From Procambarus clarkii (Eukaryota > Arthropoda > Malacostraca > Decapoda > Cambaridae), in assembly GCF_040958095.1 (NCBI RefSeq), contig NC_091156.1:19601202-19665201 (forward strand): 64,000 bases of DNA. Reading direction: 5' to 3'. The notes below the pieces were generated by a model, which was not told where the DNA came from, did not search any database, and saw only the letters and a list, made by a program, of their open reading frames with translations. Positions 16,501 through 19,500 of the stretch are shown piece after piece (within the stretch, counting starts at the first letter, position 1; every line of letters starts with the position of its first letter). Position numbers and translations under genes: made by a program.

Positions 16501-19500
16501 CAAGTCCCTGTTAATATGGGAGAACACTGTGTCTATGCTTGGTGCACAACTTGCCTAAACACACAAGTGAAGTTATACAACTTTAGAACACTTTCTAAAG
16601 TTGTATAACTTCACTTGCGTGTTTAGGCAAGTTGCGCATCAAGCATAGACACAGTGTTCTCCCATATTAACAGGGACTTGATTAAAAACGTAAGTGACCC
16701 CTCACTTGCTCTAGTTGCCCTTGGGAGGTGGTAATCTTTGGAGTGTTTAAATACCCCGAAATTACCATCTCTTTTAAGGGTCTAGCGTGGTGCAGTGGGT
16801 TAAAGGCGTACCTGTTATGCCAGTTGCTGGAAGGCTTCTGTGCTGGCTAGGGTTCGAGTCTCCTGGTGGGAAAGTGTTCTAAAGTTGTATAACTTCACTT
16901 GTGTGTTTAGGCAAGTTGTATATATATATATATATATATATATATATATATATATATATATATATATATATATATATATATATATATATATATATATTGG
17001 TGTATACTGGCAGCAGGTTTTCTTTCAAACATGTTTCATTGAATATGACCGCATATTCTGTATTTATTATTTTCTGGTTTAGGGCTTCTATCCCTCATAT
17101 ATATGTGTGTGTGTGTGTGTGAAAATTCCACACCCCAGAAGGATTTGAACCCAGACAGCCAGGGGCACTATACACCTTGGCGTACCTAGGGCCATATCCA
17201 CTAGACCACACTGTACAAAAATCTTGGTAGTCGTGAGAATCACCTCACTTGGTGGGGCCACGTGAGCCACACAAATGGGAACAAGCTTGAATGATCCCTC
17301 AAGCCAATATGCAACTGAAAACTCCTCGCCCCTGAAGGATTCGAACCCAGACAGCCAGGGCTCCATGCACCTTAGCGTATTCAGTACTATACCGCTAGAC
17401 CACACTGACTATACAAAATGGTTAGAAGTCGTGTGACCCTTAACCCAACTCCCGACAGCACTGGCCATCCTAGACCAGGAAGATCCAGGTCTGGATAAGG
17501 CTCCAGAAGATAAGTGATTGTATAAGGGTCCAGGTGACTTTATCCAGACCTTTTATCGAGACTTGGACCCTTATCCAGTCACCTTATCCAGTCACCTATC
17601 CAGTCACCTGGATAAGGTGACCCTTATCCAGGTGACTGGATAAAGGTTCTGGCGGGGTCAAAATGTCCTCACTTTAATTTAGTGTCATATGTGTGTGTGT
17701 GTGTGGGTCGGGATAATGACATTGTGGTTTATGTTGTGTGTGTGTCGGTGTAGGTGACAGATGACGTGCTCGACGAGACGGTCGACAACGCCGGCTTCAG
17801 TGTCGACACTTTCTTCTTCATCAGCGGCTTCCTGGTGACTTATGGAGTTCTGAAGGAGTTCAGCAGAGTAGGCAGGATCAACTGGATCATGTACTACGTT
17901 CACCGCGTCATCAGGTAGGATGTACTACGTTCACCGTGTCATCAGGTAGGATGTACTATGTTCACCGTGTCATCAGGTAGGATGTACTACGTTCACCGTG
18001 TCATCAGGTAGGATGTACTACGTTCACCGCGTCATCAGGTAGGATGTACTACGTTCACCGTGTCATCAGGTAGGATGTACTACGTTCACCGTGTCATCAG
18101 GTAGGATGTACTACGTTCACCGTGTCATCAGGTAGGATGTACTACGTTCACCGAGTCATCAGGTAGGATGTACACGTTCTCTATCCTTCCTTCTCGAAGT
18201 TGTTGTTGTTTTAGAGAATGGTGGAGAGAGTTGAGGGAAAGGAAATTCCTAGAGGAAGGTAAAAGCAAGCTGAAAGGTCCGGATGGGAAGGGTGTAATAA
18301 TGAGGGTGTAAGAAAGGGTGGGGGTTATAATGGATATAATAATAGGAACGTAAGAATAAAAGGAGAAAGAGAAAAATGACTGGTAGGCTTATGTTAGGTC
18401 ACGATTGTTCGAAAGTTTACAATATTTGAGTATGTATTGTGAAAGGAAAGAGTCAACAGCAACAAAGCCAAGACTAAGGTTCATGTTGGGTACGTTGTGC
18501 ATCAGAACCGATTCAAGAAGACGACGTCTGTGTAGAGTAGAGGCAGGAAAGACCATTTTAGAAGACCCATCAATAGGATGACTAGAATCCCTGACATGAC
18601 AGAAGAGAGTATTGTTTGTGTCTACAGACTTAATACTTCTTTTGTGTTCCTTAAGTCTGTCATTCAGTGAACGGTCAGTTTCCCCAAAGTATTGGAGAGG
18701 ACAAGACGAACAGGAAATAGAGTAGACACCAGCGGCATTAGAAGCAGGAGGAGCAGTGTGAACTAGATTACTAGAAAAAGAGTTCGTTTGTCTAAAGGCA
18801 AGTTTTATGTCAAGAGGTCGAAGGGTATTAGTGAGATTTTTTAGTTCAGATATGAAGGCAGAGCACAGTGGTACTAGTGATGGAAACTTTTTTAGGAAAA
18901 GAAACGTCGTCATCTCCTCATCTTCTGGTGTATGGTTTAGTCTTCATAAGGAGATAATAATAAGATATCATTGAGATAACTGTGTATTAATGATCTTATT
19001 CAAATCGTCTTTTAAGTGATCAATCAAAAATGGATCCAAATTATACAGAGCATTACTAATGCTCAAATTGTATGGTTTTGTAATCTGTATTAAAGCAGAT
19101 TCAATAACGTTTCTATTGAAAATACTTTTACACCTCGTTATTGAAGAAGACTTCTCCCGATCACTTTGGCGATAACTTTCTGACAAAGGAATTTACTGAC
19201 AAATTGTAAAAGCATTTCCAGTAGTGAATCTGGGCATAGTATTAGTGAATCTGGGCATAGTATTAGTGAATCTGGGCATAGTATTAGTGAATCTGGGCAT
19301 AGTATTAGTGAATCTGGGCATAGTATTAGTGAATCTGGGCATTGTATTAGTGAATCTGGGCATAGTATTTGTGAATCTGCTTTAATACAGATTACAGATC
19401 CATACAAATTGAACATTAGTAGTGGTCTGTATAATTTGGATATATTTTTGATTGATCAATTCAAAAACTATTTGAGTAAGATCATTAATACACACTTATC

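Follow-up and report, generated by a model that had tools for sequence, protein, structure and literature searches.

A splice donor at the end of a coding exon of a crayfish gene has been amplified, together with the exon bases that precede it, into a 31-bp minisatellite that begins within the exon and runs into the following intron. In the 64,000-nucleotide stretch of DNA that we analysed (the window, part of contig C7 in a 4.03-Gb genome) the array holds nine equal donors, sister copies of the gene hold as many as 32, and in every copy only the first donor keeps the reading frame open. We consider it probable that this is an ordinary minisatellite seeded at a splice junction, with donor 1 normally used and the later donors mostly silent or serving as bait for nonsense-mediated decay (NMD). 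In minisatellite-rich DNA, a splice junction can be swamped by equal decoys with little divergence of the coding exons, and the comparison of nine with about thirty identical donors, of which only the first is open, constitutes a natural experiment of a kind otherwise built by hand in minigenes.

A 31-bp array with nine equal donors

The original prediction held that the donor of the exon 3 junction had been amplified into a 31-bp minisatellite, with the exon end and its donor repeated eight further times. TRF found a single array at 17889-18179 in the window (period 31, 9.4 copies, 97% matches), and alignment of the units resolved nine complete 31-bp copies spanning 17889-18167, each consisting of 26 exonic bases followed by GTAGG, which bears out the repetition and supports the exon as the seed. 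The predicted span of 17889..18175 was right at its start but too short at its end, as the array finishes at 18179. Units 2, 4, 6, 7 and 8 have the same sequence, units 1, 3, 5 and 9 each deviate from it at a single base, and a short repeat, ATGTAC, is present at both edges of the unit. Minisatellites are commonly described as several tandem copies of a unit of ~10–100 bp, and the arrays of this gene (31 bp × 9.4 in the window, and 30/31 bp × 32 and × 30 in the sister copies described below) fall within that description.

The GT dinucleotides of the nine donors lie at 17915, 17946, 17977, 18008, 18039, 18070, 18101, 18132 and 18163, and all nine carry CAGGTAGGA. The expectation of equal donors proved exact, with 9/9 reading CAG/GTAGGA (the slash marks the exon end), and the exon ends foreseen at 17914, 17945 and 17976 were all correct. 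Outside the array this 9-mer is absent from both strands of the 64-kb window. On the exonic side, the last 8 bases are common to donor 1 and donors 2–4 and 6–9, and donor 5 has 26 bases in common with donor 1.

When exon 3 was joined in silico to exon 4 from each of the nine donors, donor 1 gave an open frame and the other eight ran into one common stop codon. The claim that use of any later donor would put AGG TAG into the message thus held for 8/8 later donors. Exon 3 is 161 bases long, and use of the later donors would stretch it to 192–409 bases in the window and to at most 1103 bases in the copy with 32 donors. The outcome was the same in all four gene copies, each joined to the exon 4 of the window (20323-20485): donor 1 was the sole open join, and every later donor led to the same stop.

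We follow the original prediction in numbering the exons and in calling the gene nrf-6, and we traced the gene from exon 3 onward. Exons 3 and 4, once joined, matched the PF01757 (Acyl_transf_3) profile at 42.6 bits (cut-off 31), with the match crossing the junction; adding both candidate later exons brought the score to 44.7 bits, the best stretch covering the first candidate only. In a six-frame search of the unjoined genome the same profile gave two matches, both below the cut-off and both to exon 3 of minus-strand copies. The two candidate exons contain the motifs WYTAVDTQ and PWCRANSY, which we take to be motifs of NRF-6-like acyltransferases, and because the phases of these exons do not fit, further exons are expected between 26723-26816 and 32609-32744. 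Judged by its sequence, the gene is acyltransferase-3-like, as is NRF-6, an assignment made with a profile that cannot tell NRF-6 from other acyltransferase-3 proteins. Intron 3 also contains an (AT)n tract at 19821-19901 and a 21-bp array at 19222-19379, the latter with 7.5 copies in the window and 9.5 in the near-identical gene copy L011.

Table 1. Coordinates, within the window, of the gene segments and array units
Feature	Position	Strand	Remarks
Exon 3 (numbering of the original prediction)	17754..17914	+	open frame; 17889-17914 is the exonic part of unit 1
Unit 1	17889..17919	+	26 exonic bases + GTAGG; GT at 17915; sole frame-keeping donor
Intron 3	17915..20322	+	2408 bases from donor 1
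Units 2-9	17920..18167	+	eight intronic 31-bp copies, CAG/GTAGGA in each
Partial unit ATGTACACGTTC	18168..18179	+	12 bp; one T missing, as in the commoner 30-bp unit type
Exon 4	20323..20485	+	joined to donor 1 reads VHRVI-R-LAPP
Candidate later exon	26723..26816	+	edges by eye; with it, the PF01757 match reaches profile position 150
Candidate later exon	32609..32744	+	edges by eye; near-same peptide in two inverted copies; outside the best Pfam stretch

Four gene copies with 9 to 32 donors

Among the 47 genome matches listed (40 of 109 candidates were scored), the array part of our query was found on C7 only, in four gene copies: the window itself (+), C7:19850373 (+), and two minus-strand copies near 19540000 and 19746000. 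These carry 9, 9, 32 and 30 donors, respectively. Copy number does vary, as had been anticipated, here between gene copies at four places, and sister genes with 30–32 donors make the observation stronger than first reported. The copy at C7:19850373 is 100% identical to the window over the 547-base query. All 80 donors across the four copies are intact, neighbouring donor cores lie 30 or 31 bases apart without exception, and ATCAG/GTAGG occurs in every unit (9/9, 9/9, 32/32 and 30/30). Of the 60 intronic units that the two minus copies hold between them, 36 measure 30 bp, whereas unit 1, which begins in the exon, keeps the frame, with a length of 31 bp and the same sequence in 4/4 copies. The intactness of the donors could reflect homogenisation of the units or selection for donors; counted by eye, the independent changes within units number ~7, at two spots plus one lone change, and are too few to separate the two.

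The four copies fall into two plus/minus pairs. A run of 500 N lies at C7:19727292-19727791, and the second pair (L010 and L011) starts directly after it, with 97.7–99.6% identity to the first pair in the compared pieces. This second pair could represent either the other haplotype, scaffolded in tandem, or a tandem copy of recent origin, and the minus arrays of 32 and 30 donors may be alleles or recent duplicates, the pairs being parted by the gap. L011 also has a ~250-bp insert near 6920-7172, whose sequence matches the repeats found at 43312 and 51467 in the window.

An inverted duplication, to which the plus and minus copies belong, relates window 6918-40419 (~33 kb) to C7:19517568-19545156 (~28 kb). 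It carries the gene and also holds matches to the minisatellites at window 6577, 7736, 8661 and 10408. Over exons 3 and 4, the alignment of the window with the minus copy spans 325 bases (one of them intronic) and shows two differences, both in exon 3 (2/161); exon 4 has none. The flanking non-coding sequence, gaps excluded, differs at 32/296 bases upstream (Fisher P=4e-9 against the exons) and at 44/1239 downstream (P=0.003). In the sequence comparison of plus and minus copies, most of intron 3 past the array was without a match. Based on this comparison, the array most likely predates the duplication and changed in length afterwards.

The low divergence of the exons most likely means that they stayed constrained or were homogenised since the duplication, and gene conversion between the copies could have contributed in part. 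Both exon differences are amino-acid replacements. Strong constraint acting alone would not lead one to expect this, although two changes are too few to judge. That the exons are conserved while the number of donors spans 9 to 32 argues that donor 1 would be the one used in most transcripts.

Origin of the array and choice among its donors

Distant paralogous exons on contigs C33 and C87 (44 and 45% identity) end AG/GT at the matching position, with the donors CAGGTACGC and CAGGTTAGT, respectively (the C87 locus was read by eye in reverse complement), and the array is absent from the junction in both. C33 also has a match resembling exon 4, ~6 kb beyond the exon 3-like paralogue. The donor position shared in the absence of the array indicates that the intron position is older than the array, and also that the junction copied into the array is the gene's own.

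Tandem arrays are a common feature of the region. We ran TRF, followed by a simple overlap filter (units of 10–100 bp, at least 3 copies), over the 251 kb of non-N sequence surrounding the genes and obtained 123 arrays, 29, 58 and 36 of them in three stretches that partly duplicate each other. These arrays cover 59.9 kb, or 23.9% of bases, at ~1 array per 2 kb, and their median unit is 29–30 bp. A donor-like word occurs in the unit of 4 of the 123: the window array, its inverted copy, an array of 36 bp × 54 (within 19480001-19600000) and one of 56 bp × 4 (within 19665001-19745000). With arrays this dense, the chance that a 31-bp seed covers any particular donor is ~1.5%, a figure of arithmetic rather than a measured base rate, and occasional chance capture of splice junctions is therefore to be expected.

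We propose that the array began with a tandem duplication of 31 bp spanning the border of exon 3 and intron 3, probably through slippage, which the ATGTAC repeat at the unit edges would suit, or through unequal exchange, and that the duplicated stretch then grew like any other minisatellite in a part of the genome rich in such arrays. The array would have arisen before the inverted duplication and would afterwards have drifted, presumably under selective neutrality, reaching 9 units in one of the paralogues and 30–32 in the other. Under exon definition, the spliceosome would pick the donor closest to the body of the exon, making donor 1 the one normally used. The later donors, local copies that share its immediate context, would be ignored, or used at a low level with their products cleared by NMD, or spliced to one another without a trace. 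The isoform and dosage-tuning ideas of the original prediction would be superfluous for explaining an array of this origin.

A regulated nonsense switch, in which a share of transcripts uses donors 2–9 to give TAG-truncated, decay-prone mRNA and the number of units sets the output of the gene, seems to us unlikely. The later donors do match donor 1 over the 9-mer and each leads to the same stop, and the spread in copy number, from 9 to 32, is real. In addition, a study of competing 5′ splice sites reports that SR proteins (SRSF1) can favour the intron-proximal site (PMC5585400), and from such a preference the use of late donors could be predicted here. However, the exons have diverged little whether followed by 9 donors or by 32, and arrays of a similar kind form a common regional background; the presence of arrays of similar size everywhere in the region would argue against any required tuning role. 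Because every later donor shares its last 8 or 26 exonic bases with donor 1, units 2, 4, 6, 7 and 8 are identical, and exons 3 and 4 are near-identical in the four copies, short RNA-seq junction reads would be ambiguous at this locus.

We give still less credence to the idea that the array acts as a self-similar splicing buffer. Here the CAG/GTAGG boundary of each unit would be a possible acceptor as well as a donor regenerated by splicing (a ratchet point of recursive splicing). Within the array, splices at least two units apart would leave an identical junction and so be silent, and the many U1 sites next to the exon would help to define it. AG/GT is indeed regenerated in each unit, and pyrimidines account for 65% of the 20 bases upstream of the unit 2 CAG, compared with 50% and 55% at the acceptors of exons 3 and 4. 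A strong polypyrimidine tract was nevertheless not seen, and an intron of one unit would be just 31 bases, which is too short for splicing.

That misassembly produced the array length or the gene copies is very improbable. The second pair does adjoin the 500-N gap, with the degree of similarity to the first that a second haplotype would show. However, many differences outside the array distinguish plus from minus copies, which have arrays of their own (9 vs 30–32 donors), the presence of the array at four places in the assembly makes a local one-off error unlikely, and at most the four genes would become two genes with two alleles each, with the arrays still in place.

We also considered a special RNA structure and rejected it. 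Folding of the array strand gives a long hairpin in which the donors are paired, and the fold is no stronger than those of shuffled controls, which were as low or lower in 60/200 cases for dinucleotide-shuffled tiled units (z −0.44) and in 47/200 for mononucleotide-shuffled ones.

Parallels in known systems and elsewhere in the genome

The minisatellite of human IFI6 is the closest model and precedent for a minisatellite with many donors. The two are alike in that the minisatellite starts in an exon and has a donor in each unit (80/80 units here). They differ in that the 12-bp unit of IFI6 preserves the frame, whereas the 31-bp unit leads to an immediate stop. In the crayfish gene, unlike in IFI6, 26 of the 31 bases of the unit derive from coding sequence, and unit number ranges from 9 to 32 between gene copies. 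The IFI6 array has 26 of the 12-bp units and lies at the donor of exon 2, at the end of that exon. The IFI6 (6-16) minisatellite supplies multiple splice donors, and two of its downstream units are used, according to the work of Turri, Cuin and Porter (1995, NAR 23:1854; as cited in PMC4526556). Use of downstream donors is thus reported for IFI6, whereas in the crayfish array it is hypothetical.

A second parallel is intron gain through tandem duplication of AGGT-containing segments, for which PMC4974935 describes fission-yeast cases with several 24-bp AGGT copies. In the Rogers model, in potato RdRp and in the 24-bp repeats of fission yeast, a short exonic or boundary segment is duplicated and splice sites are multiplied, as here. 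A new intron would be absent from relatives; here, unlike in the intron-gain cases, the intron position is old, with AG/GT at the matching position in C33 and C87, the copies lie inside an existing intron, and no new intron is required. The array also resembles intronic VNTR minisatellites in its 30–31-bp units, its internal variants and its length differences between copies, and is unlike an ordinary intronic VNTR in that it begins in a coding exon and bears that exon's own donor. Papers on earthworm metallothionein and chicken MUC2 were considered as well and, in the portions available, held no parallels. A literature search covering titles and abstract openings, with several result sets off target, returned no comparable 31-bp exon-donor minisatellite.

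Across the genome, triples of the near-perfect donor word CAGGTAAGT with gaps of 12–40 nt are ~9 times commoner than triples of the reversed word (1908+1346 vs 203+158), and triples of CAGGTGAGT with the same gaps are ~4 times commoner (5834+6174 vs 1864+1164), in counts that take overlapping triples of one array repeatedly, include some that resemble repeat families, and use the reversed word as one kind of control. The counts cover words irrespective of exon context, and the excess is a lead only. It is doubtful, in our estimation, that donor minisatellites seeded at exon ends are recurrent in this genome, perhaps kept as runs of U1 sites or silent splicing buffers that aid exon definition. 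If they were, long repeat-filled introns would be where exon definition gets buffered, and the C7 genes, with their 9 to 32 identical donors, would form a naturally occurring dose series for the choice of 5′ splice site.

Elsewhere in the window, long open frames at 29530-31932 (+) and 13474-15500 (−) resemble, by eye, a non-LTR reverse transcriptase or endonuclease. The tandem repeats at 48558-48970 and 52638-52837, most of whose units are multiples of three (30, 39, 42, 72 and 78 bp), may be coding.
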